Assembly (NCBI RefSeq): GCF_023101665.1
Contig: NZ_CP082161.1
Coordinates: forward strand, 5,766,001-5,830,000
Source of the DNA: Bradyrhizobium sp. 195
GTDB lineage: Bacteria > Pseudomonadota > Alphaproteobacteria > Rhizobiales > Xanthobacteraceae
Direction: 5' to 3'
DNA: 64,000 nucleotides
Shown: positions 1,539 to 54,268 of the stretch, in pieces
Position numbering within the stretch: the stretch's first letter is position 1
Layout: each line of letters begins with the position of its first letter
Position numbers and translations under genes: made by a program
Notes under the pieces: generated by a model
Database searches by the model: none
Told to the model about the DNA's origin: nothing
Seen by the model: only the letters and a program-made list of their open reading frames with translations

Positions 1539-3818
1539 TTAGCGGAGCAGCTGGAGCACGCTCTGCTGCGACTGGTTGGCCAGCGACAGCGCGGAGACCG
1601 CGATCGACTGCCGGGTCGACAGCGCCTGGCTGTTGGCGGCTTCGACGTTGGTGTCGGCCAGGGTCAGGTTGGACGAACCGGTCTGCAGCACGTTGATCAG
1701 GTTCTTGTTGAAGTCCTGACGAACCTGCACGATCGTCAGGTTCGAACCCAGAGCCGAAGCTTCCGAACGCAGCGTGCTCGAGGCGGAGTTCAGGTTCGTG
1801 AGCACCTTGTTGGTGGCAGCGTTATCGATGAAGTCGACACCGCTGGTCAGCGCAGCGAGGCCCAGACCCTTGGAGTTGTAGGTCACGCCCGTGATGCTCA
1901 GGCTCGACTTGGCAGTCTCGTCGAACACCAGCTTGAGCTGGTCGCCGTTCAAGAGGTTGACACCGTTGAACGAGGAGTCCTGCGCCGTCGAGTCGATCTG
2001 GTTCAGGATGTTGTTGTACTGGTTGACGAGATTGGCACGCGAGGTCTGCGCAACCGTATCCTGGACGGGGCTGGAAGCCGTCGAGAAGGTCAGCGCCGAA
2101 GTCAGCGTACCGCCGATCGAACCACCTGCGGCGCTCGAACCGATGGTCGAGGACGCGTAGTCGTTGGTGGTCGAGACCGTCAGCAGGCCGTTGGCGTCGA
2201 TCGTCGCCGTCAGGTTGTTGGCCTGAAGCTTGGTGTTGAGCTGATCGAGCGTCTTGACCGTGCCGTTGGTGCCGTCACCGAAGGTGGCGGTGACCGCCGT
2301 GCCGCCGTTGAAGGAGGAGAAGGTCAAGGTCTTGCCGGTGATGCCGCCGACGCCCGAAGTGCGCGCCGCGGTGAAGGCGGTCGAAGTGCCGGTGTTGCCG
2401 GCGAAGCCGAGCGCATTCAGCGCGTTGCCGGTGCCGGTGATCGACAGATCGGCGTTGACGCCGGTCGAGAGCTTGAGCTGACCCGAGGCGTTGATCGACG
2501 AGTTGGTCTGGCCGGTGGCGGTCGCAAGCGTCGCGGTGCCGTTGGCATTGACCGTCGCGGTCTGCACGCCGGTGGCAAGGTCGATCGCCTTCAGCACGTC
2601 ATTGACCGTACCGCCCTGCAGATAGACCGTCGAGTTGCCGGCGCCATCCGTGAGAACGTTGCCGCTCGCACCGAAGCCGCTCGGAACGCTCGGCGCACCG
2701 GTCGAACCCGGGATCGGCGCGTTCTTGAAGGTGATGACGTGACCGTCGACGTTCAGCGTCGAGCCGTCCGCGATCGTCGCACCGAGCGAGCCCGCGCTCG
2801 TGGTCCGGTTGACGCTCACGGTAGCGTTGCCGCCGCCCACAGACGTGGTCAAGCCGAGAGACTTGAGCAGGTCGGCCTTGCCGGTGACGCTCAGATCCGC
2901 ACCCGTCGAGCTCTTCAGCGTGACGGCGCCCGCACCAACGCTCGAAGCGGTCTGGTTGAAGCTGGTGGCGATGGTCGCAGCGCCGGCAGTGATGGAGGCC
3001 GTCTTGACGCCGCTGGCCAGATCGACCGCGGTCAACAGATCGTTGACGGTCGCAGCCGGGGTGCCCGCGGTCCCGAGATAGACCGTGGTGTTGCCGCTGC
3101 CGTCGGTGACGAGGTTGCCGCTGACGCCAGAGCCGGACGCAACCCCAGTTGACGCCGGAGCAGAACCCGAGCGGAAGGTGATGGTCTTGCCGTTCACGGT
3201 CAGCGTGTCGCCGTCGGCGGGCTGGGCGTTGCCGGCCAGGCCTGTTGCGGTCGTGCCGTTGGTGGCGATCAGGGTGATGGCGCCGGTCAGGGCCGCGGTG
3301 CCGTCGCCGGCCGTTCCCGCAGTGCCCGTGAAGGTGCCGATGGTGGCGCCGAGCGTCGTCGTGCCGGTCGCCGCGGTGGTGCCGCCGGCAGCGCCGTTAT
3401 ACACGACGTTGCTGCTCGCGGTCGCGCTGGCGAAGCTGGTCGTGCCGCGCAGGTCGGCCGCCGTCGCACCCGAGATGGTGGTGGAGACGTTCGACTTGGT
3501 GGAGTAGCCGACGGTGGTCTGCAGCGCCTGGTTGGCGATCGACTTGGCGCTGTCGATCAGCTTCTGCAGCGAGGTGATGCCGGTGTTGGCGGCCTGCAGC
3601 ACCTGCACGCCGTTGGCGATGCCGTCGAGCAGATTGTTGATGTCGCTGGCGCGGTTGTCGAGCGACTGTGCGGTGAAGAAGTTGGTGGGATTGTCCAGGG
3701 CCGAGTTGACGCTCTTGCCGGTCGACAGACGGCTTTGTGTGGTGGCGAGAAGATCAGCGGTGGACTGGAGAGAGAGCAGGTTCTGACGAACCGACGAAGA
3801 GAGGACGATACCGGACAT
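1539..3818 (-). CDS. fliC: Flagellin, large subpolar type, second tandem copy
   Basis: Complete filament subunit of 759 aa, far longer than typical 270-500 aa flagellins. Residues 1-110 and about 620-759 are the conserved helical D0/D1 domains that pack the filament core (SLSxANQSQQSVLQLLR C-terminus). The extra length lies in the surface-exposed middle, which carries two related modules at about 201-324 and 352-472. Each opens with a beta motif of the form TLTVNGKTITF / TLNVDGHVITF and continues with a VNDLL/VNDVL helix. These are typical flagellin hook-IN features. The size matches what is known of the thick subpolar flagellum flagellins of B. japonicum. From about 2471 to 3357 the DNA is nearly identical to copy 3. 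Confidence 0.96.
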   Translation of the reverse strand: MSGIVLSSSVRQNLLSLQSTADLLATTQSRLSTGKSVNSALDNPTNFFTAQSLDNRASDINNLLDGIANGVQVLQAANTGITSLQKLIDSAKSIANQALQTTVGYSTKSNVSTTISGATAADLRGTTSFASATASSNVVYNGAAGGTTAATGTTTLGATIGTFTGTAGTAGDGTAALTGAITLIATNGTTATGLAGNAQPADGDTLTVNGKTITFRSGSAPASTGVASGSGVSGNLVTDGSGNTTVYLGTAGTPAATVNDLLTAVDLASGVKTASITAGAATIATSFNQTASSVGAGAVTLKSSTGADLSVTGKADLLKSLGLTTSVGGGNATVSVNRTTSAGSLGATIADGSTLNVDGHVITFKNAPIPGSTGAPSVPSGFGASGNVLTDGAGNSTVYLQGGTVNDVLKAIDLATGVQTATVNANGTATLATATGQTNSSINASGQLKLSTGVNADLSITGTGNALNALGFAGNTGTSTAFTAARTSGVGGITGKTLTFSSFNGGTAVTATFGDGTNGTVKTLDQLNTKLQANNLTATIDANGLLTVSTTNDYASSTIGSSAAGGSIGGTLTSALTFSTASSPVQDTVAQTSRANLVNQYNNILNQIDSTAQDSSFNGVNLLNGDQLKLVFDETAKSSLSITGVTYNSKGLGLAALTSGVDFIDNAATNKVLTNLNSASSTLRSEASALGSNLTIVQVRQDFNKNLINVLQTGSSNLTLADTNVEAANSQALSTRQSIAVSALSLANQSQQSVLQLLR

Positions 3819-4180: not shown

Positions 4181-6460
4181 TTAGCGGAGCAGCTGCAGCA
4201 CGCTCTGCTGCGACTGGTTGGCCAGCGAGAGCGCGGAGACCGCGATCGACTGGCGGGTCGACAGCGCCTGGCTGTTGGCCGCTTCGGTATTGGTGTCGGC
4301 CAGGGTCAGGTTGGACGAGCCGGTCTGCAGCACGTTGATCAGGCTCTTGTTGAAGTCCTGACGAACCTGCACCACCGAGAGGTTCGAGCCGAGGCTCGAG
4401 GCTTCCGAGCGCAGCGTGCTCGACGCGGCGTTCAGGTTCGACAGCACCTTGTTGGTCGCGGAGTTGTCGATGAAGTCGACACCGCTGGTCAACGCAGCGA
4501 GGCCCAGACCCTTGGAGTTGTAGGTCACGCCCGTGATGCTGAGGTTCGACTTGCCGGTTTCGTCGAACACCAGCTTGAGCTGGTCGCCGTTCAGGAGGTT
4601 GACACCGTTGAACGAGGAGTCCTGCGAGGTCGTGTCGATCTGGTTCAGGATGTTGTTGTACTGAGACACCAGATTGGCGCGAGCCGTCTGAGCAACCGTA
4701 TCCTGGACGGGGGTGGAAGCCGTCGAGAAGGTCAGCGACGAGGTCAGCGTACCGCCGATCGCACCACCTGCGGCGCTCGAACCGATGGTCGAGGACGCGT
4801 AGTCGTTGGTGGTCGAGACCGTCAGCAGGCCGTTGGCGTCGATCGTCGCCGTCAGGTTGTTGGCCTGAAGCTTGGTGTTGAGCTGATCGAGCGTCTTGAC
4901 CGTGCCATTGGTGCCGTCGCCGAAGGTGACGTTGACCGCCGTGCCGCCGTTGAAGGAGGAGAAGGTCAAGGTCTTGCCGCTGATGCCGCCGACGCCCGAA
5001 GTGCGCGCCGCGGTGAAGGCGGTCGCCGTTCCGGTGTTGCCGGCGAGGCCAAGCGCATTCAGCGCGTTGCCGGTGCCGGTGATCGACAGATCGGCGTTGA
5101 CGCCGGTCGATAGCTTGAGCTGACCCGAGGCGTTGATCGACGAGTTGGTCTGGCCGGTGGCGGTCGCAAGCGTCGCGGTGCCGTTGGCATTGACCGTCGC
5201 GGTCTGCACGCCGGTGGCAAGATCGATCGCCTTCAGCACGTCATTGACCGTACCGCCCTGCAGATAGACCGTCGAGTTGCCGGCGCCATCCGTGAGAACG
5301 TTGCCGCTCGCACCGAAGCCGCTCGGAACGCTCGGCGCACCGGTCGAACCCGGGATCGGCGCGTTCTTGAAGGTGATGACGTGACCGTCGACGTTCAGCG
5401 TCGAGCCGTCCGCGATCGTCGCACCGAGCGAGCCCGCGCTCGTGGTCCGGTTGACGCTCACGGTAGCGTTGCCGCCCCCCACAGACGTGGTCAAGCCGAG
5501 AGACTTGAGCAGGTCGGCCTTGCCGGTGACGCTCAGATCCGCACCCGTCGAGCTCTTCAGCGTGACGGCGCCCGCACCAACGCTCGAAGCGGTCTGGTTG
5601 AAGCTGGTGGCGATGGTCGCAGCGCCGGCAGTGATGGAGGCCGTCTTGACGCCGCTGGCCAGATCGACCGCGGTCAACAGATCGTTGACGGTCGCAGCCG
5701 GGGTGCCCGCGGTCCCGAGATAGACCGTGGTGTTGCCGCTGCCGTCGGTGACGAGGTTGCCGCTGACGCCAGAGCCGGACGCAACCCCAGTTGACGCCGG
5801 AGCAGAACCCGAGCGGAAGGTGATGGTCTTGCCGTTCACGGTCAGCGTGTCGCCGTCGGCGGGCTGGGCGTTGCCGGCCAGGCCTGTTGCGGTCGTGCCG
5901 TTGGTGGCGATCAGGGTGATGGCGCCGGTCAAGGCCGCGGTGCCGTCGCCGGCCGTTCCCGCAGTGCCCGTGAAGGTGCCGATGGTGGCGCCGAGCGTCG
6001 TGGTGCCGCTCGCAGCCGTCGTGCCGCCGGCAGCGCCGCTAAACACAACGTTGCTGCTCGCCGTCGCGCTGGCGAACGAAGTCGTGCCACGCAGGTCGGC
6101 CGCCGTCGCACCCGAGATGGTGGCGGAGACGTTCGACTTGGTGGAGTAGCCGACGGTGGTCTGCAGCGCCTGGTTGGCGATCGACTTGGCGCTGTCGATC
6201 AGCTTCTGCAGCGAGGTGATGCCGGTGTTGGCAGCCTGCAGCACCTGCACGCCGTTGGCGATGCCGTCGAGCAGATTGTTGATGTCGCTGGCGCGGTTGT
6301 CGAGCGACTGTGCGGTGAAGAAGTTGGTGGGATTGTCCAGGGCCGAGTTGACGCTCTTGCCGGTCGACAGACGGTTCTGCGTGGTGGCGAGGAGGTCAGC
6401 GGTGGACTGGAGGGAGAGCAGGTTCTGACGAACCGATGAGGAGAGGACGATACCTGACAT
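4181..6460 (-). CDS. fliC: Flagellin, large subpolar type, third tandem copy
   Basis: Complete 759-aa filament subunit, the same length as copy 2. Protein differences from copy 2 cluster in residues 29-150 (for example NVVFSGAAGG against NVVYNGAAGG) and after about residue 470. Residues roughly 155-470 look identical. The two hook-IN type modules are at about 201-324 and 352-472. It is the first gene of the leftward flagellin array and is divergent from flbT. FlbT proteins are known to act on flagellin mRNA leaders, and the leader here is long (over 90 bp from the TTCGTTAG element to the ATG), leaving room for such control. Confidence 0.96.
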   Translation of the reverse strand: MSGIVLSSSVRQNLLSLQSTADLLATTQNRLSTGKSVNSALDNPTNFFTAQSLDNRASDINNLLDGIANGVQVLQAANTGITSLQKLIDSAKSIANQALQTTVGYSTKSNVSATISGATAADLRGTTSFASATASSNVVFSGAAGGTTAASGTTTLGATIGTFTGTAGTAGDGTAALTGAITLIATNGTTATGLAGNAQPADGDTLTVNGKTITFRSGSAPASTGVASGSGVSGNLVTDGSGNTTVYLGTAGTPAATVNDLLTAVDLASGVKTASITAGAATIATSFNQTASSVGAGAVTLKSSTGADLSVTGKADLLKSLGLTTSVGGGNATVSVNRTTSAGSLGATIADGSTLNVDGHVITFKNAPIPGSTGAPSVPSGFGASGNVLTDGAGNSTVYLQGGTVNDVLKAIDLATGVQTATVNANGTATLATATGQTNSSINASGQLKLSTGVNADLSITGTGNALNALGLAGNTGTATAFTAARTSGVGGISGKTLTFSSFNGGTAVNVTFGDGTNGTVKTLDQLNTKLQANNLTATIDANGLLTVSTTNDYASSTIGSSAAGGAIGGTLTSSLTFSTASTPVQDTVAQTARANLVSQYNNILNQIDTTSQDSSFNGVNLLNGDQLKLVFDETGKSNLSITGVTYNSKGLGLAALTSGVDFIDNSATNKVLSNLNAASSTLRSEASSLGSNLSVVQVRQDFNKSLINVLQTGSSNLTLADTNTEAANSQALSTRQSIAVSALSLANQSQQSVLQLLR

Positions 6461-6781: not shown

Positions 6782-7222
6782 ATGGCCCTCAAGGTCGAGC
6801 TCAGGCCGCACGAACGTATCATCGTCGGTAACTGCGTGATTACCAACACGGACCAGCGTGCCCGCCTCCTGATCGACGGCGACAACGTGCCGATCCTGCG
6901 CGAGCGCGACATCCTCACGCCCGAGACCGCCGATACGCCGGCCAAGCTCGTCTATCTGGCGGTCCAGCTCATGTACATCTCGCCGGATCCGCAGACCCAG
7001 CACGGCACCTATTTCAACCTGGTGCGCGACATCGTCACCGCGGTGCCGAGCGCCTGGCCGATTATCGAGGCCATCAACAACAACATCCTGAACGGCGACC
7101 TCTACCGGGCGCTAAAGGACGCCCGCAAGCTGATCGCCTATGAAGAGAAGCTGCGCAGCCAATTCGAGGCCACCCATCCCAAGGCGGACGCGGACAACGC
7201 CGACGTGAGCTCCGCCGCCTGA
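6782..7222 (+). CDS. flbT: Flagellin mRNA regulator FlbT
   Basis: 146 aa and collinear with the FlbT family from its start (MALKVELRPHERIIVGNCVI) through the YISPDPQTQHGTYFNLVRDI region. FlbT is a cytoplasmic post-transcriptional regulator that, in Caulobacter, binds the 5' leader of flagellin mRNA and couples its translation or stability to hook completion. Bradyrhizobium has FlbT paralogues for its two flagellar systems; this one sits with the large flagellins. Its usual partner gene flaF is not beside it: the next gene is convergent and unrelated. The ATG has a GGAGAA ribosome site. Confidence 0.95.
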   Translation: MALKVELRPHERIIVGNCVITNTDQRARLLIDGDNVPILRERDILTPETADTPAKLVYLAVQLMYISPDPQTQHGTYFNLVRDIVTAVPSAWPIIEAINNNILNGDLYRALKDARKLIAYEEKLRSQFEATHPKADADNADVSSAA

Positions 7223-7270: not shown

Positions 7271-7315
7271 ACGACAACGGCCCCGGATCGCCTCCGGGGC
7301 CGTCGTCCGTTTCAG
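7271..7315. terminator. Bidirectional terminator between flbT and the PLP decarboxylase gene
   Basis: A long GC-rich inverted repeat (ACGGCCCCGGA ... TCCGGGGCCGT, extended by ACGAC/GTCGT) lies between two convergent stop codons. It is followed by a short T-containing tail on the plus strand. Confidence 0.8.
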
Positions 7316-7328
7316 GCATGCACCAGTG

Positions 7329-8828
7329 CTATTGCGCCGCGAGCGGCGGCGCTTCGACCTCGATCATTCCGTCGCCGCACCGCCGGCCGCCAAACTCCAG
7401 CACGGCCGCGACCAGCGCATCGATGTCCGCCTCCTCGGTACGGTGATTGACGATCGCAGCGCGGATCGCAAACTTGCCGTTCAGCGTCGTGCTCGACGGC
7501 GCTGCTATTCCGGACTCCTGAATATCGGCGACGATCTCGCGATTGATCGCATCATCGGCACGGTAGCGGAAGCAGACGATGTTGAGGTTGACCGGCGCCA
7601 GCAATTCCAGGCGCGGCTCGGCAAGAATGCGCGTCTCCAGATATTTCGCGAGCGCGCAGCTTCGCGCGATCGTCGCACCCAGCCGGTCGATGCCGAACGT
7701 CTTCAGCGTGAACCAGGTCTTCAACGCACGGAAGCCGCGCGACAGATCGGGTCCGAGATCGCAGGGCCAGACCGCCCCCGCCGCAAGCCCCCTCGCCTCA
7801 CGCCGCAGATAGGCCGCCGGCTGCGCAAAGGCCTGCCGATGCTGCTCGCCGTCACGTACCAGCAGGAAGCCGGCATCGTAAGGCACCTGTCCCCATTTGT
7901 GGAAATCGAGCGCGATGGAATCGGCGAGCTCGATGCCGCCGAGCAGCGGCGCGAGCTCGGGCGAGAAGATCGCGAGCGCACCGAAAGCACCGTCGACGTG
8001 AAACCAGATCCCCTCCTCGCGGCACAGCTGCGCGATGGCCTTGAGGTCGTCGATCGCACCGATGTCGACCGTGCCGGCAGAGGCAACGATCAGGAACGGC
8101 TTGAAGCCGACCTCGCGATCAACGGCGATTTGCGCGCGTAGCGCGGCAACATCGATGCGATGATCGGCATCGACGGCGATCTTGCGCAGCGCATCCGTGC
8201 CGAGCCCGGCAATGTCCATCGCCCTGGAGACGCAGCCATGCGCGGCCTGCGAGGTATAGGCCGTGAGCAGAGCGCCATCGTTGCCGATGCCGTATTGCCG
8301 CGCCAGCGTGCCGAGCGCGTTCGTGCGCGCCACCAGCACCGCCATTAGATTGGCCATCGACGTGCCCGTGACGAAGATGCCGCTCGCGCTGTCCGGAAAG
8401 GCGAACAGGCGGCGCATCCAGTCCACGATCTGGCGCTCGACCTCGATCGGCATGTGATCGCGACCACCGAGATTGGCGTTGAGACCGGCTGCGAGCATTT
8501 CCGCGAGCATGCCGACCGCGGTGCCGCCGCCATGCACCCAGCCCATGAAGCCGGGATGGACGTTGCCGGTCGCAAACGGCGCGACGTGCTCGGCGAATTC
8601 GCGATAGACCTCGGCGAGGTCGCTCGCCTCGCGCGGCACGTCTGCCTTGAAGGCCGCGCGGGTCGCATCGGGGATCGGCTGCCAGACCGGGCGCGCCCGA
8701 ACGTCGGCGATGCCGTCGATCGTCTCGTCCAGCATGCGATGGGCGAGCGCGCGAAATGCGCTCCAGTCCTGCGGGTCGAGCGAGGCGTGCGCGACGGAGC
8801 TTTGCGCGTTGCGGACGATCTCGTTCAT
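7329..8828 (-). CDS. PLP-dependent amino-acid decarboxylase (group II, aromatic/glutamate type)
   Basis: 499 aa from the ATG at 8828, preceded by GAGGGGAG. This is a fold-type I decarboxylase, converting an L-amino acid to its amine with loss of CO2. The PLP Schiff-base lysine is K311 in DFHKWGQVPYDAG. D279 in WFHVDGAFG should contact the pyridine nitrogen, and H197 in SQAAHGCV should stack on PLP. The N-terminal VHPGFMGWVHGGGT segment is typical of aromatic-L-amino-acid decarboxylases. The substrate cannot be read from sequence. Its ATG overlaps the stop of the preceding ATP-grasp gene (ATGA), indicating translational coupling. It is the last gene of a four-gene cassette lying between flgL and flbT. 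A longer reading frame starts further upstream, but that extension overlaps the ATP-grasp gene and lacks family similarity. Confidence 0.9.
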   Translation of the reverse strand: MNEIVRNAQSSVAHASLDPQDWSAFRALAHRMLDETIDGIADVRARPVWQPIPDATRAAFKADVPREASDLAEVYREFAEHVAPFATGNVHPGFMGWVHGGGTAVGMLAEMLAAGLNANLGGRDHMPIEVERQIVDWMRRLFAFPDSASGIFVTGTSMANLMAVLVARTNALGTLARQYGIGNDGALLTAYTSQAAHGCVSRAMDIAGLGTDALRKIAVDADHRIDVAALRAQIAVDREVGFKPFLIVASAGTVDIGAIDDLKAIAQLCREEGIWFHVDGAFGALAIFSPELAPLLGGIELADSIALDFHKWGQVPYDAGFLLVRDGEQHRQAFAQPAAYLRREARGLAAGAVWPCDLGPDLSRGFRALKTWFTLKTFGIDRLGATIARSCALAKYLETRILAEPRLELLAPVNLNIVCFRYRADDAINREIVADIQESGIAAPSSTTLNGKFAIRAAIVNHRTEEADIDALVAAVLEFGGRRCGDGMIEVEAPPLAAQ

Positions 8829-10078
8829 GTTGCACTCCCCTCGCCTGCTCTTGCATGCCGCGACAGCATCGCCGAGAACGCCGCGAAGATCTTGCGCATC
8901 TGCGGCGGCTTGTAAGGAAACACGTCCGGCGAATCCATGTTGTGCACGACGGCGGTGTTGTCGGCTTCGAAGACCAGGAGCTCGTTGTCCTGGTTCTCGG
9001 CGCAATCGACGATGAAATAATCGAGGCCGACGCGCTTGCTCATCTCATCGAGCGCGCTTCTGTGGCGCGCTGCGAAGGCGCTGTCGAACTCGCGCATGAA
9101 GACGGCTTCCTCGGCCCGTTTCTCCTCGCTGAACGCCATGTAGGCGTTGAGATACCAAATATCCCAGCGGTCGGCGATCGCCATGTGGCAGGCGTAAGGC
9201 TTGCCGTCGACCATCGCGAGGCGATATTTGCGATAGAGGCCGTCCGCGTTCACGTAGTCGACGAAGCGCGCGACGAAGAAATCCTGGTCGTCGCGTGCGG
9301 AAAGATAAGCTGCGAGCGCCGCCGCATCGTCGAGCTTCGCGAGCCCGACGCCGGCATGCGAGCCGCGCGGCCGCGCGATCATCGGAAAGCGCAGTTCATC
9401 CGCAACGTCCCGGCAAGCGATCTGCTCTCGCGAAAGATCCAGCAATTGCGCGCGCGTCGCGTGGATGGTCGCGGGAATGTCGAGACCCGGCACGCCGGCC
9501 AGCAGCCGATGCAGCTTGTCGCGATCGAGATTGCCGATGCGATCAGGACGATTGAGCAGCGGCCGCGGCCAGTGCGGTGCGGCCTTCTCGATCAACGCGA
9601 GCGCCTCGCGGCATTCCTCGGAATCCGAGGCAACCACGATGGCAACGTCGTGCTCGGGCAAAATCTCCGGCAGACCGGCGCCCTTGACCACGTAGAGCGT
9701 CAACAGCTCGATGTCGGAGTCTTCGAGCAGAAAATCGATCGGCGTGTTGCCACCCATATCGATGTCGGCGGCAAGCGCGAGCACGCGCAGGCCCGGTTTC
9801 GGAGCAGCACTCGGCGTGCGAAACAATTGATGGAAGGCGAGCACCTCCGACTGGATCGCGAGCCCCTGATCCTTGTCGCCGAGAAGCTGGGTGATCAACG
9901 ACAGATCGAGCGCTTCGCCCGCCAGCGCGGTCCCCGCCGCGATCCGCGTCAGCATCTGGTCGCGCAACGGATGCAGGTCGACGCCTTCGAAGGCCCGGCG
10001 CGTCAGCTGCGCAAAGCCGATGCGGTCGGCATAGTTCGCCGCGGTCATGCCGATTGGCGCGGAAACCGGATGCTGCAT
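8825..10078 (-). CDS. ATP-grasp (RimK/ligase-like) protein
   Basis: 417 aa. Residues about 1-200 look like a pre-ATP-grasp region with a Rossmann-like half (LRVLALAADIDMGG, then EHDVAIVVASDSEECREAL). Residues 205-400 carry ATP-grasp features: FPMIARPRGSHAGVGLAKL (nucleotide-binding strand and glycine loop, with R where many relatives have K), YRKYRLAMVDG, and a metal-binding LLVFEADNTAVVHNMD with E371, D373 and N374. ATP-grasp enzymes form amide or ester bonds through an acyl-phosphate, so ligation of an acid to an amine is the natural guess. The amine could come from the coupled decarboxylase. The specific reaction is unknown. It starts one base after the stop of the upstream PLP enzyme and ends in an ATGA overlap with the decarboxylase, so all three are translated from one message. 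Confidence 0.75.
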   Translation of the reverse strand: MQHPVSAPIGMTAANYADRIGFAQLTRRAFEGVDLHPLRDQMLTRIAAGTALAGEALDLSLITQLLGDKDQGLAIQSEVLAFHQLFRTPSAAPKPGLRVLALAADIDMGGNTPIDFLLEDSDIELLTLYVVKGAGLPEILPEHDVAIVVASDSEECREALALIEKAAPHWPRPLLNRPDRIGNLDRDKLHRLLAGVPGLDIPATIHATRAQLLDLSREQIACRDVADELRFPMIARPRGSHAGVGLAKLDDAAALAAYLSARDDQDFFVARFVDYVNADGLYRKYRLAMVDGKPYACHMAIADRWDIWYLNAYMAFSEEKRAEEAVFMREFDSAFAARHRSALDEMSKRVGLDYFIVDCAENQDNELLVFEADNTAVVHNMDSPDVFPYKPPQMRKIFAAFSAMLSRHARAGEGSAT

Positions 10079-10079
10079 C

Positions 10080-11705
10080 TCACACCTCGAACGCGGAGTT
10101 TACGGGCACGGCCGCGACTGCGCCACGGTCAAGCAGCAGCTCGATCTTTACCAGGACCTGGGCGATGCGATCGAGAACGTGCTGCACATTGCGCTGCCGC
10201 TCCGCCGCGTCCGGCGACCAGGCCTCGGTCACGTGCCGGGCGCCGACGCAAAGGCGCAGCACGGCCTGCGGTGCCTCGTCCTCCCGCTCTAGACGGACCG
10301 GCTGGCCGATCAGGCAGCGCTGCGCGGCGACCTGCCGGTCCGCCGCGCTGCCACCGATCTCCTCGTTCATGTCGCGCGCCATCGCCCGATGAATGGCGCT
10401 GGTCTCGGCGATCGACGCTGGTTTGCCGCCGCGCAGCAGCATGAACGGAAAGATCGTGGTTTGTGCAAATTCCTCGTCATCCACGCTCGCCGTCCTGGTC
10501 GTGGGGGGAACGGAGCGAAGCGAGGGCGACAACGCGATCATGCTGTCGATGCCGGCGGCGAGCTCGGCCAGCACCTTGGCGCGGAAAGCCCCTGATACGG
10601 CGTAGTAGCTGCCGATCTCCGCGAGCGCCGCCTCCCAGCGCAGCCATTGACCGAAGTTCGGCCGGCGATCGAAGCGCGAACGCAGCGCCGTCCAGCCCAT
10701 CGGCCAATCGCAGCGGCCGGCATAGTCGAAGATACCGGGCGCTATTCCCTCGACCCGGTCGATCGATCGCGAAAGGACCTTCGGCACCAGCAGCGCACCG
10801 CTGAAGGCAGGCCCACCGAAAAATTTCGAGCCTGACATCAGCACCATATAGCCGCGGTCGAGATAGGAGCGCAGTCGGCGGCGGCCGAGCCGGGCCTGAC
10901 AGGCGTCGACGACGATCTGGACCTTGCGCGGCCAGCGCCGCGCGATCTCGTCGAGGCAGGCCGCGCTCGGCGCCCGCCATCCGAGCTTCGAGCAATCCAT
11001 GATCTGGAGCAGCACGGGCGCGCCGTGCGCGATCGTGGTCTCGATCGCATGCAGCACCGCGGCATCGGCGTCCGCACGCATCGCAATCCCGGGCGCGGTC
11101 TCGAGCAGCGGCAACGCAACGCTGGCGCCGGCGAGCCCCGCAACCGCGCCGTCCTTGCGAACCGCAAAGCCGCTCGCCGTCATGGCGCTGAAATGGTGCC
11201 CGCGGGCGCTATGGGTCGTCCCGCTTCCGGTCTGGTCGGCCCCGACCACGATCGTTACCGGCCGTGCTCCGAGCACTGCGCGCGCCAGGAACAGAGCGTG
11301 GAGCTGGGAATCCGTGCCGGAGGGCGAGAACACGACGTCGACGCGCGGCGGCAGCTGGAGATGGCCGCGCAGCTCGTCCCGCATGTCCTCGCAGCGCGCA
11401 TCGAAGGCGATTTCGACCTCGTCGAACAGGCATTTGTGCATCAGCTCTTCGCGCGCCAGCGCGGCACGGTCATAGGCCGCTTGCGAGATCGTCGACGCGG
11501 TCGAGGAGCCGACATTCCAGATCTCCGGCTCCGGCGAGGCCGCGCAGCCATAGCCGTTGACGCGATCCTTGGGGTCGAGCGCCAGCCGCGGATCTCCGCC
11601 GGAGACGAGGAGCGTGTCGAGCGGCGTGAAGAGATCGCGCAGGCGATAACGCGAACCGCCGGATGCGCGGTCCGGTTCTGACAGACGGGATGCGCCGGCG
11701 CTCAT
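10080..11705 (-). CDS. PLP-dependent fold-type I enzyme (class V aminotransferase-like), function unknown
   Basis: 541 aa from the ATG at 11705; an alternative ATG at 11729 would overlap the glycosyltransferase end by 14 bp, and both ribosome sites are weak. Fold-type I hallmarks are visible: FSPSGTDSQ (phosphate-binding loop), QIVVDACQARLG with D267 for the PLP ring nitrogen, and LMSGSKFFGGPAFSGALL with K294 as the likely Schiff-base lysine. The overall pattern is closest to class V aminotransferases and cysteine desulfurases, but I see no cysteine-desulfurase signature. At about 540 aa it is longer than the usual 380-450. The last 100 residues (after NEEIGGSAADRQ) look like an extra domain. 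It may be a transaminase, lyase or C-C bond-forming enzyme. It lies between a glycosyltransferase and an ATP-grasp gene in one cassette. Confidence 0.72.
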   Translation of the reverse strand: MSAGASRLSEPDRASGGSRYRLRDLFTPLDTLLVSGGDPRLALDPKDRVNGYGCAASPEPEIWNVGSSTASTISQAAYDRAALAREELMHKCLFDEVEIAFDARCEDMRDELRGHLQLPPRVDVVFSPSGTDSQLHALFLARAVLGARPVTIVVGADQTGSGTTHSARGHHFSAMTASGFAVRKDGAVAGLAGASVALPLLETAPGIAMRADADAAVLHAIETTIAHGAPVLLQIMDCSKLGWRAPSAACLDEIARRWPRKVQIVVDACQARLGRRRLRSYLDRGYMVLMSGSKFFGGPAFSGALLVPKVLSRSIDRVEGIAPGIFDYAGRCDWPMGWTALRSRFDRRPNFGQWLRWEAALAEIGSYYAVSGAFRAKVLAELAAGIDSMIALSPSLRSVPPTTRTASVDDEEFAQTTIFPFMLLRGGKPASIAETSAIHRAMARDMNEEIGGSAADRQVAAQRCLIGQPVRLEREDEAPQAVLRLCVGARHVTEAWSPDAAERQRNVQHVLDRIAQVLVKIELLLDRGAVAAVPVNSAFEV

Positions 11706-11715
11706 CCCGGCAGGC

Positions 11716-12501
11716 TCACGCCGCGGCATCTGCCGCCGCCGCGGGCGCGGCTGCGAATTGCGAAGCGATGTCGCCGTGGAAAACCGACGGCCCGACGTGA
11801 TCGAGCGAGCTCTGGATGTCGGCCCAGATCTCGCCGCCGATATCGGTCCAGCGCTTGCAGAAGGCGAAGTCCTCGGACAGATACGTGCCGGTTGCCGGAT
11901 CGATCATGCATTCGAACAATGCGAACCGGTTCGGGCTCGCGACCAGGGTGTCGTGCGAATGCTCGCGGAAGAACTGCAGGCTCGCATAGTCCGGATGGCG
12001 GCACATCGCCTCCAGCACGTGGCGCCGGATCATCAGGAAACCGGTGCCGGCATAGCGCACGCGGGTGAAGCCGTTGACCACGACGATACGGTCGGGATCC
12101 TCGATCTCGAGCACGTAGTCGAGCGAAGCCGCCGGCACGTCGGCCCGGCCAGACTGGATCGCCCGCGCGGCCTTGTCCCAGTTGACCCGCTTGATCGGAT
12201 AGCAGCCGGCGACGACGTCGGCGCCGCATTCGATCAGCCGGAACACCTGCTCCGGCTTGAAGCCGATGTCGGCATCGATGAACAGGAAATGCGTCGCCTT
12301 GGGATCGTCCAGGAACATCGCGGCCAGATTGGCCCGTGCGCGGGTGATCAGCGCGTCGCCGTCCCGCAGCAGCACCTTGAGCTCGAGGTTGGACATGCCG
12401 TGCACGGCGCGCTGCAGCGCGAAGATCGAGCTCGCATAGATGCTCGACACCTGCCCGCCGAAGCATGGCGTGGCCACCACCAGTTGCATCTTGTCCGACA
12501 T
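11716..12501 (-). CDS. GT-A fold glycosyltransferase-like protein
   Basis: 261 aa, cytoplasmic, no signal peptide. It begins with LVVATPCFGGQVSSIYASSI, then has an ITRARANLAAMFL helix and a DxD metal-binding motif in FLFIDADIGF (D76, D78). Further on are a GCYPIKR strand, AGTGFLMIRR and a possible catalytic region SEDFAFCKRW. These are features of nucleotide-sugar-dependent GT-A enzymes that transfer one sugar. The C-terminus is a short alanine-rich tail. The ATG is at 12501 with GGAG about 9 bp upstream. It is the first gene of the cassette, 71 bp downstream of flgL on the same strand. The acceptor is unknown; flagellin or hook protein is suggested by position only. Confidence 0.75.
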   Translation of the reverse strand: MSDKMQLVVATPCFGGQVSSIYASSIFALQRAVHGMSNLELKVLLRDGDALITRARANLAAMFLDDPKATHFLFIDADIGFKPEQVFRLIECGADVVAGCYPIKRVNWDKAARAIQSGRADVPAASLDYVLEIEDPDRIVVVNGFTRVRYAGTGFLMIRRHVLEAMCRHPDYASLQFFREHSHDTLVASPNRFALFECMIDPATGTYLSEDFAFCKRWTDIGGEIWADIQSSLDHVGPSVFHGDIASQFAAAPAAAADAAA

Positions 12502-12550
12502 CGGCAGCTCCGCCCCGCTCCAATCCTCACCAAGAGGTAAAGAGGCATGG

Positions 12551-12565
12551 TTAACGGCGTCTTAA
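12551..12565 (-). promoter_or_regulatory. Perfect CtrA box before the glycosyltransferase cassette
   Basis: TTAA-N7-TTAA, exactly the consensus of the alphaproteobacterial cell-cycle regulator CtrA. It lies between the flgL stop and the glycosyltransferase ATG, about 50 bp before the latter. In GC-rich DNA such a match is rare: at about 65% GC I would expect well under one per 64 kb. It suggests the cassette has its own cell-cycle-timed promoter in addition to any read-through from flgEKL. Confidence 0.65.
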
Positions 12566-12572
12566 CGCAGCC

Positions 12573-14462
12573 TTACAGGAACTTGACGAGCGAAAGCTGC
12601 GCCAGGTTCGATGTCACCTGGTAGGAGGCCTGAAGCGCGTTCTGGAGCGCCAGGATCTCGCTCGCGACCTGGTCCGGCGAGGCCGATTCCGCCTGGTCGA
12701 TGATGGTCTGGAGCTGCGCCTTGGCCTGGGTCTGGCGCGTGCTCGCGTCCTTCATCGTGTTCTGGGCCATCGCGATGTCGGTCTGGATGTCCTCGATGCG
12801 CTGCTGACCAGGCTGCTGCGTCAGCGCCTGGGTCACCCGCAGGCTCAGCGCGGCGACCTGCCCGCCCGAATATTGTCCGGTCGGCGAGGTCGAGAAGGTC
12901 CCGAACACCGCGGTCGCCTGCAATTGCCGGCGGATCGCGTCCTCATTCGCCTGGGCGCCATACTGCACCGTGACGGAATCGTCGACCCGCGCCATCGCGG
13001 TCGAGCGCGCCGAGCCGGGCCCGTCATTGCCCAGGTACCATTTCACGGTGGTGGCCGAGCCGTTGACCAGCGTCGTCGCCGAGCTCGCGGGCGAGGAGCC
13101 GACGCGGAGCGGCGGCTGCGTGGCGGTCACGGGCGTCGAGGCAAAACCGAGCGAGCCCAGCGCGCCCGTATTCGAGCTGGTGATATTCAGGCTGGCCGCA
13201 TCGTCGGTGTTGATCGTGATCGAACCGCCGTGGACCGTCGACGGCTTCGACGTCCCCGTGATCGCGTCGATCTTGCTCATCAGCGTCTGGATGCTGTCGC
13301 CGACGTTGAGCTGGTTGCCGGTCGCGCCCGTGGCCACGAAGGTCAGCGTGGTGCCGTTGACGGTGATGGTGTCGCCGGCGACGAAACCCGGCGAGATCGA
13401 GTCCGTCGGGCTCGCACCGGACAGCGCTGTCGCTCCGCTGATCGGTACGAGGGGGCCCGCCTGGCTGGTCTTGGGCGCGCCGATCGCAGAGCTTGCGGTG
13501 TTGAAGAAATTGTCACCGGCGGTCACGGCGGACGCCGCAACCAGCGAGGTGCCTGCGAGCTTCTGGATCGCGATGTTCAATGCGTTGTTGAGGTTCAAGG
13601 CCGTGTTGTTCGGGTTGACCGGCGTGCTCGCATCGATCGCGAAGCTGCCGAGCGGCGTCGGCGTCGCCGTCGATGCGGTCAGGTCGATCTGCTCGGTCGT
13701 GCCGTCCGGCAGCGTGAACTGAACGCTGAGCTTGTCGCCGTTGTTCGGATTGATGCCGTTGAGATCAACCGAGAACGACACCGGCGATCCGCTCGGGCCG
13801 GTGACGGTCGCGCCTGTCAGCGTCGAGGAGACCGCCTTGATCTTGAGGCCGAACGGCGAGCCCGCGACGTCTTCCGACACCTGGACCGAGCTCGGCGTCG
13901 GCTGTGGCGTTGCCAGTACCAGGCGGCCCATGCCGTTGGCCCCCAAGTCGGCGGCCTGGCGCTCCGCCATGACGGTCTTGAATCCCGCTTGCGTCGTCGT
14001 GCCGTTGATGATGTCGCCGGCGTCCGCAACCGACTGCGTGTTGACGGCGGTCCCGGAGAACAGATAGCGGTTGCCCGTCTGCGTGTTGAGCACGCCGACC
14101 ATCGAGCCGAACTGGGCGGCGGCGGTGTTCTGCGCGATGGTCTGGCCGTTGACGTTGAGGTCCTGCGCGGTGTTGGCGGCGCCCGTCTGCACAGTGCTGC
14201 GGATCTTGGTCAGCGACTGCAACGCGGTGTTGGCGAGGTTGATGCTGACATTGACGTTGGTGATCGTGTCGGTATAGGCGGCGATGTTGGAGAGCTGCGC
14301 GCGCCCGGCGATCGCAAAGCCCTCGTTGGTTCCCATCCCGGAATAGTTCTGCGACAGCTTCCCGGTCGAGAGCTGCGTCGACAGGTCCGTGAGCTGCTGA
14401 TTGATGTTGCGGATCTGCGAGCCGAGAACCGACGAGGAGTAGTTGATGCTGCTGATCGACAT
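12573..14462 (-). CDS. flgL: Flagellar hook-filament junction protein FlgL (HAP3), enlarged
   Basis: 629 aa, about twice the size of enteric FlgL. FlgL forms the last junction ring between the hook and the filament. The N-terminus (SSINYSSSVLGSQIRNINQQL, then DLSTQLSTGK) and the C-terminal helix (ending NLAQLSLVKFL) are the conserved flagellin-like coiled-coil ends. The middle carries an inserted module at about residues 362-440 (DTITVNGTTLTF, a DSIQTLMSKID helix and a GSLGF close). It closely resembles modules in FlgE and FliC of this locus. The gene is third in flgE-flgK-flgL, 21 bp after flgK. Confidence 0.93.
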   Translation of the reverse strand: MSISSINYSSSVLGSQIRNINQQLTDLSTQLSTGKLSQNYSGMGTNEGFAIAGRAQLSNIAAYTDTITNVNVSINLANTALQSLTKIRSTVQTGAANTAQDLNVNGQTIAQNTAAAQFGSMVGVLNTQTGNRYLFSGTAVNTQSVADAGDIINGTTTQAGFKTVMAERQAADLGANGMGRLVLATPQPTPSSVQVSEDVAGSPFGLKIKAVSSTLTGATVTGPSGSPVSFSVDLNGINPNNGDKLSVQFTLPDGTTEQIDLTASTATPTPLGSFAIDASTPVNPNNTALNLNNALNIAIQKLAGTSLVAASAVTAGDNFFNTASSAIGAPKTSQAGPLVPISGATALSGASPTDSISPGFVAGDTITVNGTTLTFVATGATGNQLNVGDSIQTLMSKIDAITGTSKPSTVHGGSITINTDDAASLNITSSNTGALGSLGFASTPVTATQPPLRVGSSPASSATTLVNGSATTVKWYLGNDGPGSARSTAMARVDDSVTVQYGAQANEDAIRRQLQATAVFGTFSTSPTGQYSGGQVAALSLRVTQALTQQPGQQRIEDIQTDIAMAQNTMKDASTRQTQAKAQLQTIIDQAESASPDQVASEILALQNALQASYQVTSNLAQLSLVKFL

Positions 14463-14483: not shown

Positions 14484-16367
14484 TTACCCTTGAGCCTGGA
14501 GCAACGTGTTCATCATGCTTTGCACCACCGACATGACGTGAGCGTTGGCGGCATAGGCATTCTGGAGCTGGATCAGGTTCGACATCTCGGAGTCGAGGTT
14601 GACGCTGGAGGTCGAGCTGAACTTGGCCTGGAGCGTCGAGACAACGACGCTCTGGCCCTGCTGGAGCTGGGTTGCCTGGGTCGCGGCGTTGGCCTGCACG
14701 CTCAGGAACTGCTGGAGAAAATTCGAAACGCTGCCGCTGAAGGGCTGGCTCGCCGAGCCGAGACCGCTCTGCGGCGAATAGGAGAACACCGACGAGGTGA
14801 GCTGCGAGTAGAGATAGTCGGAACGCGTGGTGTCGCCCGCGGGCGTCACCGGCGAGGTGTTGTACACCGACATCCTGGTCGGGTCGTTGACCAACTGCGT
14901 GTTCACGGCGATGCGTCCGGCAAGGCCGGTCATCTGCGATCCCGAGCCGGTGATCGCGCCGGTGTAGAGCGCCTGTCCGCCGTCGGTGAACAGCGGCAGT
15001 TGTGGATTGCCCGAGGTCAGCGACGAGATCGTCTTGCTGGTCGAGGCCGAATTGACCTTGGCGAGGCCGCTGCTGTCGTCGGTGACCCGCAGCGTCGTGG
15101 CGGTCGCTGGCGGCGGCGTGGCAGAGAAGGACAGGTGCGAGCCCGAGAGCGCGGTGTTGAGCGCGGAGGCGATCGCCCCCATGCCGCCGGCGAAGTTGAT
15201 GCCGATCCGCATCGGGTTGGCATTCGTCGCGTTCTGGAGCGGCAGCGCCGCCGGATCGGTCACGTTGACCAGCGTGACCTGACGCTGCGTGTTGGTTGCG
15301 GTGTCGGTGTAGGTGATATTGACCGTGTTGCCCGGCAGGGCACCAGCGAGATCGAGATCGAACCCGGCCGGCGGACCGGACACCGTGCTGCCGGGCGTAG
15401 TCTTGTCGGACAGCGCGCTCGACATCGTGGCGGCGAGCTGGTCGATCTGGTTCTGCGCCTGCACCAGCAGATCGTCGCGCAGCTTCAGGTCGGCCGCGAT
15501 CTGGCCGGACGACACCACGTTGTTGGCGACGACGTCGACCTGCGAGCCATTCGGCAGCTTGATGTTGAACGCGCCGACGCCGGACTTGGCCGGATCGATG
15601 TTGTAGAGCGAGGTCGCCGACAACGCGCCCGCGGACGCAAAGGAGAATTCCGATGCAAGGCCGGCACCGACCAGCTGAATGCCGGTCGTGGTGTAGATAT
15701 TGGCCTGGTTCGAGCCGTCCATGGTGACGCGGACGTCGACATATTTCGACAGCGTGTTGATGGCCTGGTCGCGCTGATCCATCAGAGTCGCGGCCGAGGG
15801 GTCGTTGGCGGACAGGGCCTGCAACTTGGTGTTGATGGTGGCGACCTGCTGCATCGCAGCGTTCGCGGCCTGCGCCGAGGTGCCGAGATCCTGCTCGACG
15901 TTCGAGCGCAGCGACTGGATGCCCTTGGTGGTGACGTTGAGCTGCGTGGCCAGCGCCTGCGCCGCACCGAGGGCAACGGTTTGCGCCGACGACGCGCCCG
16001 AGCTGGTCGACAGCGCCTGCAGCGCGGTGGTGAATTTGTTCAGCGCGTCTTCGAGCGTACCGCTGTTGCCGGGCGTGCCATAGACATTCTGAAGCTGCTT
16101 CAGGATGTTGGCCATCTGGTCGGCGTAACCGCTGCCGCCCGTCTCGGTGCGCAGTTGGTTCTGCACAAAGGTGTCGAGCTCCCGGCTGACGCCGGTCGTC
16201 ATCGCCGTCGAGCCGAAATCGCCGGTGGTGACCTCGATCTGGTTCGGCCTCTGGACGACGTAACCCGGCGTCTGCGAATTCGCGACGTTCGAGGAGACGA
16301 TCGAGAGCGCGGCCTGGTTGGCACGCAGACCGCTCATCGCACTGGCGAGGGCTGAACTCAAACCCAT
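14484..16367 (-). CDS. flgK: Flagellar hook-associated protein FlgK (HAP1)
   Basis: 627 aa. FlgK is the first hook-filament junction protein. The N-terminus (MGLSSALASAMSGLRANQAALSIVSSNVANSQTPGY) is the family signature also shared with rod and hook proteins. The C-terminus (DSEMSNLIQLQNAYAANAHVMSVVQSMMNTLL) is the conserved terminal helix. A variable, threonine-rich domain fills about 300-470. I did not see the TVNG-type module found in FliC, FlgL and FlgE. The gene lies 34 bp after flgE in the same operon. Confidence 0.95.
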   Translation of the reverse strand: MGLSSALASAMSGLRANQAALSIVSSNVANSQTPGYVVQRPNQIEVTTGDFGSTAMTTGVSRELDTFVQNQLRTETGGSGYADQMANILKQLQNVYGTPGNSGTLEDALNKFTTALQALSTSSGASSAQTVALGAAQALATQLNVTTKGIQSLRSNVEQDLGTSAQAANAAMQQVATINTKLQALSANDPSAATLMDQRDQAINTLSKYVDVRVTMDGSNQANIYTTTGIQLVGAGLASEFSFASAGALSATSLYNIDPAKSGVGAFNIKLPNGSQVDVVANNVVSSGQIAADLKLRDDLLVQAQNQIDQLAATMSSALSDKTTPGSTVSGPPAGFDLDLAGALPGNTVNITYTDTATNTQRQVTLVNVTDPAALPLQNATNANPMRIGINFAGGMGAIASALNTALSGSHLSFSATPPPATATTLRVTDDSSGLAKVNSASTSKTISSLTSGNPQLPLFTDGGQALYTGAITGSGSQMTGLAGRIAVNTQLVNDPTRMSVYNTSPVTPAGDTTRSDYLYSQLTSSVFSYSPQSGLGSASQPFSGSVSNFLQQFLSVQANAATQATQLQQGQSVVVSTLQAKFSSTSSVNLDSEMSNLIQLQNAYAANAHVMSVVQSMMNTLLQAQG

Positions 16368-53869: not shown

Positions 53870-54268
53870 GGCGCAGGCCCCGGCATCGCGCGACGGTTCC
53901 GCCGGTCCGGCGGGCGAATTTGACCTCACCCAAGCATGGAAATGGTTAACGAAATGTTTGGGCTGTTTGACGTAGATCTGCCCGTTTATTGACGAAAAGT
54001 TGCCGCAATCGACCGCGTCCGGTGGAGAATTGCATTTATTGCTAAGGCGTTAGGGCGCGATCCTGTTAACGATGATTAAGAATGTCTTAATCGCGGGCAT
54101 TTCATTCGCGACGCTCTGCCAATAGGATGTTGCAGAAATTGGCGGACAAGCCGTCCGGGTGGGGACGGCTCGGAGATCCGCGCAAGCGGCATGATCCGGT
54201 CTGTGGGCTTGCGTTGTGCGCAGGGCTCGCGGGGGGACGCGTACAAGTAACGAGGGCTCGGACTGAAC
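53870..54268. other. Divergent control region between Hpt and GPR-like genes
   Basis: No gene. It includes the perfect CtrA box at 54076-54090, an overlapping TTAA-N6-TTAA at 54066-54079, and a TTAACG half-site near 53947. The A/T-rich stretch 53935-54090 stands out from its GC-rich surroundings and probably holds both promoters. The leader before 54269 is over 150 bp long. Confidence 0.6.
54076..54090 (+). promoter_or_regulatory. Perfect CtrA box before the GPR-like gene
   Basis: TTAA-N7-TTAA, an exact CtrA consensus, about 180 bp before the ATG of the 1970-aa protein and 207 bp before the Hpt gene. It is one of only two perfect matches I found in intergenic DNA of this window. An additional TTAA half-site overlaps it on the left. 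Confidence 0.65.

Follow-up and report, generated by a model that had tools for sequence, protein, structure and literature searches.

A decarboxylase and ATP-grasp ligase cassette in the flagellar locus of Bradyrhizobium sp. 195 and its possible role in filament modification

Described systems resembling the cassette

The described systems closest to the cassette analysed here are the sfm operon of Shewanella oneidensis, the type B flagellin modification genes of Clostridioides difficile and the FlmG protein of Caulobacter. The cassette consists of four genes in a flagellar locus of Bradyrhizobium sp. 195, which encode a putative GT-A glycosyltransferase (GT), a pyridoxal 5'-phosphate enzyme (PLP), a probable ATP-grasp ligase (AG) and a group II PLP-dependent decarboxylase (DC). 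It lies in a 64,000-nucleotide stretch of contig NZ_CP082161.1 (positions 5,766,001 to 5,830,000), called the window below.

The sfmABCDE genes of S. oneidensis form a small operon needed for a fully functional filament. Its last gene, SO_3265 (sfmE), encodes an ATP-grasp domain protein proposed to act as a carboxylate-amine ligase or as a peptide-modifying enzyme, whereas the partners include a thiamine pyrophosphate enzyme, a reductase and a methyltransferase, and neither a decarboxylase nor a class V PLP enzyme is named in the available part of that paper (PMC3765264). In type B C. difficile, glycosyltransferases and the ATP-grasp protein CDR20291_0245 have been proposed for flagellin modification; unlike in our cassette, the other genes are FemAB-like, ornithine cyclodeaminase-like and FdtB-like, and the available sections list no decarboxylase (PMC5207246). 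FlmG, which consists of tetratricopeptide repeat (TPR) and glycosyltransferase parts, is a flagellin O-glycosyltransferase whose TPR part binds flagellins and which is cell-cycle regulated. As far as it is described there, its TPR-plus-enzyme layout resembles that of AG and of a TPR-glycosyltransferase (TPR-GT) of one Bradyrhizobium clade, but the glycosyltransferase domain of FlmG adds pseudaminic acid to flagellins and AG would be a ligase (PMC7591256). It is by analogy that the apparently TPR-like N-terminus of AG, together with the TPR-GT neighbours, brings FlmG to mind.

In Bradyrhizobium, the subpolar flagellins FliC1-4 correspond to bll5843-bll5846, and 'glycosyl' occurs only in the title of a reference in the accessible text of the paper concerned (PMC4823718). 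The accessible text of a phylogenomic survey of the Bradyrhizobium flagellum contains neither 'glycos' nor 'decarboxylase' (PMC6406911). In the open-licence literature we found no paper describing the cassette, none on the combination of these enzymes with flagella and none on the locus tags bll5848-bll5851, which agrees with an earlier interpretation of the DNA alone (the sequence-only reading) that no named pathway has this combination.

The module outside Bradyrhizobium

We regard the cassette as the form taken in Bradyrhizobium by a module that is widespread and undescribed, with DC and AG as its core and usually with the class V-fold PLP enzyme; most likely, the module would serve to modify flagellin or a different protein of the filament, directly or through a glycan. 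We put the probability of each of these two statements at about 0.5, and the confidence given here to overlapping readings is not exclusive. A decarboxylase and a carboxylate-amine ligase are a minimal amide-forming pair, to which class V PLP chemistry is optional. In the pathway that we infer, with its substrates, bond, order of steps, target and regulator, DC would convert an amino acid to an amine, AG would join this amine to a carboxylate acceptor by an ATP-driven amide bond, the transaminase- or lyase-like PLP enzyme may supply or edit a building block and would be dispensable, the Bradyrhizobium GT would add a sugar, and a CtrA-type promoter would time production to flagellum assembly.

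When named genomes were scanned with an alignment of distant PLP relatives, 279 relatives were obtained, of which the best 80 were analysed. DC, AG and PLP are found together in 64 of these 80 loci, and 59 of the 64 modules are contiguous, on one strand and in the order DC-AG-PLP; three of the other five have PLP on the opposite strand and two have the order DC-PLP-AG. The sequence-only reading would have been weakened by genes that are scattered and never co-occur, and the opposite pattern is seen here. The 16 loci without the full module comprise four that start with an AG fragment at the edge of the contig, one with PLP and AG, one in which PLP follows a non-ribosomal peptide synthetase (NRPS) and ten with PLP alone (nine from Rhizobium and one from Phenylobacterium). 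Single-ORF (open reading frame) fusions in six loci cover all three pairings of the enzymes: DC-AG in L122, L145 and L172, AG-PLP in L126 and L164, and DC-PLP in L178. The named relatives include Sulfuricella, Gallionella, Methylobacter, Cupriavidus, Variovorax, Undibacterium, Caulobacteraceae and Rhizobium, as well as Geobacter, Riflebacteria and Fibrobacteria, whose loci come from metagenome-assembled genomes (MAGs), so that misbinning is possible.

Further PLP relatives were taken from other families of the order and from a phylum draw. PLP has AG and DC as neighbours in L020, L021, L056 and L062-L067, PLP and DC are present in L057 and L058, and L068 is interrupted by the contig end. In L018, which has both PLP and DC, a relative of AG fused to TPR lies about 2.7 kb past DC, and in L055 and L059-L061 PLP occurs without AG or DC. 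Amide-forming partners recur where AG is absent: another ATP-grasp protein (ATPgrasp_ST) in L019, an NRPS in L107 and, in L057 (4938-11493), a 944-aa protein with tandem ATP-grasp regions and an acylphosphatase domain that follows PLP-DC. An ORF family beside PLP in L059-L061 (fam4) was dropped, because its members looked antisense-like by eye and the two that were tested had no Pfam match. As a separate observation, PLP and DC of L018 (7825-13073) adjoin a HAD hydrolase, which we take to resemble phosphonoacetaldehyde hydrolase, and a flavin adenine dinucleotide oxidoreductase.

Association with flagellar genes

The ORFs of the 64 module loci were clustered and the 45 largest families were viewed. 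With module and antisense ORFs set aside, the commonest neighbours were flagellin (13 loci), FliS (10) and FliD (10), followed by a family resembling methyl-accepting chemotaxis proteins (seven loci, judged by eye) and then by hook, ring and rod proteins. The recurrent families were flagellar, and no recurrent metabolic partner gene stood out among those viewed. A core flagellar gene was present in the flank of 22 of the 64 modules, each locus's own queries being left out of the count, as against one of 20 control windows (Fisher p 0.007); for modules with at least 18 kb the figures were 15 of 39 and one of 20 (Fisher p 0.005). The controls were random 20-kb windows from flagellin-bearing contigs of nine module genomes, and the single control match was FliA-like. 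The tie to flagellar loci that the sequence-only reading proposed thus reaches well beyond Bradyrhizobium.

The positions within flagellar clusters vary. L118, L119 and L185 have flgM/flgN on one side of the module and flgB on the other, and further modules lie beside ycgR-fliK-fliS-fliD, beside fliS-fliD-fliC (some with TPR-GT genes) or near flgK and fliT. In the DC tree (75 rows) the flagellar label needs nine changes, and well-supported branches force four of these; the bootstrap is not settled, and the label 'no flagellar gene seen' may stem from short contigs. Within the phylum draw, flagellin is present in 25 of 26 genomes with PLP, a count read by eye that includes G594 with its marginal PLP match, and in 305 of the 372 others (p 0.04). 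It was also found in 40 of 42 module genomes without flagellar neighbours. Filament modification appears the likeliest use because of the flagellar enrichment, the TPR-like AG, the TPR-GT neighbours and the ATP-grasp precedents. If the filament is modified, amide-type chemistry would be added to flagellin modification, and the finding may bear on how plant-associated bacteria show flagellin to their hosts.

Several points weigh against a flagellar use. The control is small, with 20 windows from nine genomes, two of which overlap, and related loci are not independent. No flagellar gene was seen in the flank of 42 of the 64 modules, 25 of the 64 loci having less than 18 kb. The flagellar query set came from the same loci; ten representatives were checked against Pfam (nine matched flagellar families and the FliA one only sigma-70 regions) and the rest were named by eye, and two of the 22 loci (L139 and L154) are counted through FliT alone, labelled by eye. 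At genome level the association is weak, since flagella are the rule (330 of the 398 phylum-draw genomes have flagellin), and no flagellin was found in two of the 42 genomes whose modules lack flagellar neighbours. PLP relatives occur without AG and DC in L107, L189, nine Rhizobium loci, L055 and L059-L061, and we found no mass measurements for the Bradyrhizobium filament. In Shewanella, deletion of sfmE left the filament and swimming in place and reduced spreading on soft agar; as sfmE matters least for swimming, a mild phenotype of cassette loss would not be surprising (PMC3765264, available sections).

The 42 modules without flagellar flank genes would also fit a free small molecule, of use to motile cells, be it a metabolite of amide or dipeptide type, a signal or a protectant, that is co-expressed with flagella in some bacteria and never attached. 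We consider this doubtful, though possible. ATP-grasp ligases commonly make peptides, possible transporter genes lie beside some modules (EamA in L066 and L067, an ABC transporter in L056), and in L107 the PLP relative follows an NRPS with a MatE exporter nearby. However, among the 45 largest neighbour families an ABC ATPase was seen in six loci and MFS in four, as against 13, 10 and 10 for flagellin, FliS and FliD (EamA was not searched by name), and the TPR-like N-terminus of AG also argues against a free product. Were the product free, it would be a metabolite linked to motility in several phyla.

A specific form of filament modification, which we hold to be unlikely, is that a TPR-guided AG links the amine straight to flagellin, through an amide bond with side-chain carboxylates and without recourse to sugar pathways, with PLP diversifying the amine and the Bradyrhizobium GT extending it, and that this recurs in Proteobacteria and, judged from MAGs, in Geobacter relatives, Riflebacteria and Fibrobacteria.

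Variation of the cassette within Bradyrhizobium

In 195 Bradyrhizobium genomes drawn, PLP relatives occur in 116 (fragments and distant types included) and GT relatives in 148 (distant ones included). The flagellar loci were marked with flgL as the query; 53 were obtained, and L090, L091 and L223, whose pieces lack flgL or flbT, were dropped, which left 50 with both genes. Since these loci were partly picked for missing PLP or GT, the shares given here are not population frequencies. The order GT-PLP-AG-DC is present in 21 of the 50 loci, and three more have it together with a second AG and a TPR-GT9-like gene. Another 14 carry GT, AG and DC without an intact PLP (five of them with TPR-GT and three with a second AG), one lacks only GT, one has only AG and DC, and in the remaining ten flgL lies directly beside flbT.

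AG and DC are thus present in all 40 occupied loci, GT in 38 and an intact PLP in 25 (L111 is counted here, its match being in two pieces), while PLP is missing or broken in 15. Short PLP remnants between GT and AG in L092, L093 and L098 (genomes G623, G793 and G755) point to loss in place. As AG and DC persist without intact PLP or without GT, a fixed four-gene pathway is rejected: the sequence-only reading was right to see a functional unit, but its core is DC and AG, with PLP as the usual third gene. Nor does the unit always sit beside flgL and flbT, a constancy that the same reading had proposed to check, as the closed junctions in ten of 50 loci and the outside modules without flagellar flanks show.

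The ten empty sites mark the cassette as an accessory insertion. Such an insertion, with PLP lost or broken in several genomes, would be expected of a metabolic operon that came to lie by chance among flagellar genes and has no flagellar role. We regard this as very improbable: among unrelated bacteria the module has different places in the flagellar clusters and is enriched there over the control, and both the position of the cassette and the promoter box described below are kept across diverged Bradyrhizobium.

The near-constant GT would suit the tailoring of a sugar, in which a flagellin glycan would receive an amine or amino acid and the sugar so modified would be transferred by the GT of Bradyrhizobium. 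This overlaps with filament modification as proposed above, and we advance it tentatively. It is consistent with a TPR-GT9-like gene in the flagellar cluster of eight of the 50 Bradyrhizobium loci, with TPR-GT-like matches near seven of the 64 named modules and with ATP-grasp genes inside flagellin-modification clusters of other bacteria. However, GT is absent from L087 and L227 and had no match in any of the 80 named loci, and NeuB was found in only eight of 16 Bradyrhizobium genomes with GT, AG and DC, so nonulosonic acids are not required and obligate nonulosonic-acid tailoring was rejected. The genome of strain 195 has two NeuB matches outside the window. The TPR-GT9-like gene is not in the window's locus, and TPR-GT gave only weak partial matches in the genome of strain 195; the gene accompanies a second AG in L085, L086, L089, L090, L102, L103 and L104, in some cases with several unrelated genes between.

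Enzymes of the cassette

The DC gene (7329-8828, minus strand) encodes 499 aa. Residues 53-423 cover positions 1-375 of the 375-position PF00282 profile (E-value 1.2e-65, 222.1 bits against a gathering cut-off of 27), which places DC among the group II PLP decarboxylases. It aligned over most of its length with solved decarboxylases such as 4obu, DOPA decarboxylase and the desferrioxamine-pathway decarboxylase 5o5c, including the HK lysine and the VDGA aspartate. DC scored far below the cut-offs of all NCBI equivalog models listed (e.g., 179.5 of 900 for 2,4-diaminobutyrate decarboxylase), so a substrate cannot be assigned from them.

The AG gene (8825-10078, minus strand; 417 aa) belongs to the ATP-grasp superfamily by weak but consistent similarity: the family profile matched RimK-type 3vpd (E-value 5.2e-4) and D-Ala ligase (0.005), and the match to rimK_fam had an E-value of 5e-4. 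Its score for the RimK family of glutamate ligases (TIGR00768) is below the curated cut-off (19.5 bits against 143.4). Judged from its relatives, with weak Pfam matches to TPR_12 in ten of 53 members and to GSH-S_ATP in five of 53, the N-terminal part appears TPR-like. A single scan of viral sequences with AG as the query gave no relatives, and a phage origin of the cassette was rejected on this basis.

The predicted structure of the PLP enzyme (10080-11729, minus strand; 549 aa) has a class V aminotransferase fold and carries the conserved SGSKF lysine. Its fold neighbours are alanine-glyoxylate aminotransferase, PhnW (2-aminoethylphosphonate transaminase) and NifS, but identity to class V enzymes was mostly 10-14% among the top rows, and Aminotran_5 (PF00266) was matched by one of 63 family members (E-value 0.0072) and not by the window protein. 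Aminotransferase and desulfurase rows tied in Z, so no specific class V subfamily could be chosen, and we treat PLP as an unnamed family within the fold. Members stand straight after an NRPS in L107 (84-10447; Bradyrhizobium G631), where the MatE exporter follows on the opposite strand, and in L189 (1-2924; Rhizobium mongolense); the same family therefore seems to serve a natural-product pathway there. Among the ten neighbour proteins checked in the PLP-only Rhizobium and Phenylobacterium loci there was no ligase or NRPS.

The GT gene (11716-12501, minus strand; 261 aa) is the first of the cassette. A FIDAD motif suggests its assignment to GT-A, and it matched phrog_1574, a phage protein family of unknown function (E-value 2.4e-32). 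Apart from some distant proteins, its Bradyrhizobium relatives fall into groups of about 91-98% and 74-85% identity, and GT looks like a Bradyrhizobium addition to the module. The families named by the sequence-only reading therefore hold to different degrees: fully for DC, by weak similarity for AG, by predicted structure for PLP and by motif and phrog_1574 only for GT. In the window only DC has a Pfam family, GT, PLP and AG being without any match. Two of the three module enzymes thus lack a Pfam family, although the operon is widely distributed, occurs in naturally fused forms and takes different places in the flagellar clusters of unrelated bacteria.

The CtrA-type box upstream of GT

The sequence TTAACGGCGTCTTAA at 12551-12565, whose end is some 50 bp upstream of the GT start, fits TTAA-N7-TTAA, which we take to be the CtrA consensus. 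Exact occurrences number two in the window against 0.01 expected. Of the 38 Bradyrhizobium loci with GT, 21 have the exact box upstream of the gene and the other 17 have it with one mismatch; its distance to the GT start is 58 to 87 bp in all 38, and the spacer varies. The perfect site that the sequence-only reading reported is therefore present and conserved. The background of exact sites across these loci, with the counted sites left in, is 0.022 per 260 bp; sites with one mismatch are commoner, and several loci contain a further one close by. Where other genes part GT from flgL, a one-mismatch box remains with GT. The GT promoter thus has a conserved putative CtrA-type box, from which we infer the regulator. 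The second exact site, at 54076-54090, is another candidate CtrA box.

Gene arrangement and neighbours in the window

As the sequence-only reading stated, the cassette consists of four tightly spaced same-strand ORFs between flgL and flbT, and the ORF coordinates bear this out. PLP and AG are 1 bp apart, and AG and DC overlap by 4 bp. Two starts are possible for PLP: the first ATG, at 11729, gives 549 aa and a 14-bp overlap with GT, and an internal ATG at 11705 gives 541 aa and leaves 10 bp between the genes. Many PLP homologues have 540-544 aa, the length class of the shorter form. PLP and the ATP-grasp protein each gave a single match in the genome of strain 195, and close homologues are from Bradyrhizobium wherever the source gives a name. 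One PLP homologue is named Bll5850, presumably a locus tag of B. diazoefficiens USDA110.

The upstream neighbour (12573-14462, minus strand) is flgL, named by the first reading and by its place after a flgK-like ORF (14484-16367). On the other side lies the convergent flbT (6782-7222, plus strand), which had a match with an E-value of 0.001 or less in all 18 relatives searched. A G+C-rich inverted repeat near 7279-7304, between flbT and DC, was noticed by eye rather than by a terminator scan. Beyond flbT, two tandem flagellin-like genes of 759 aa occupy 1539-3818 and 4181-6460.

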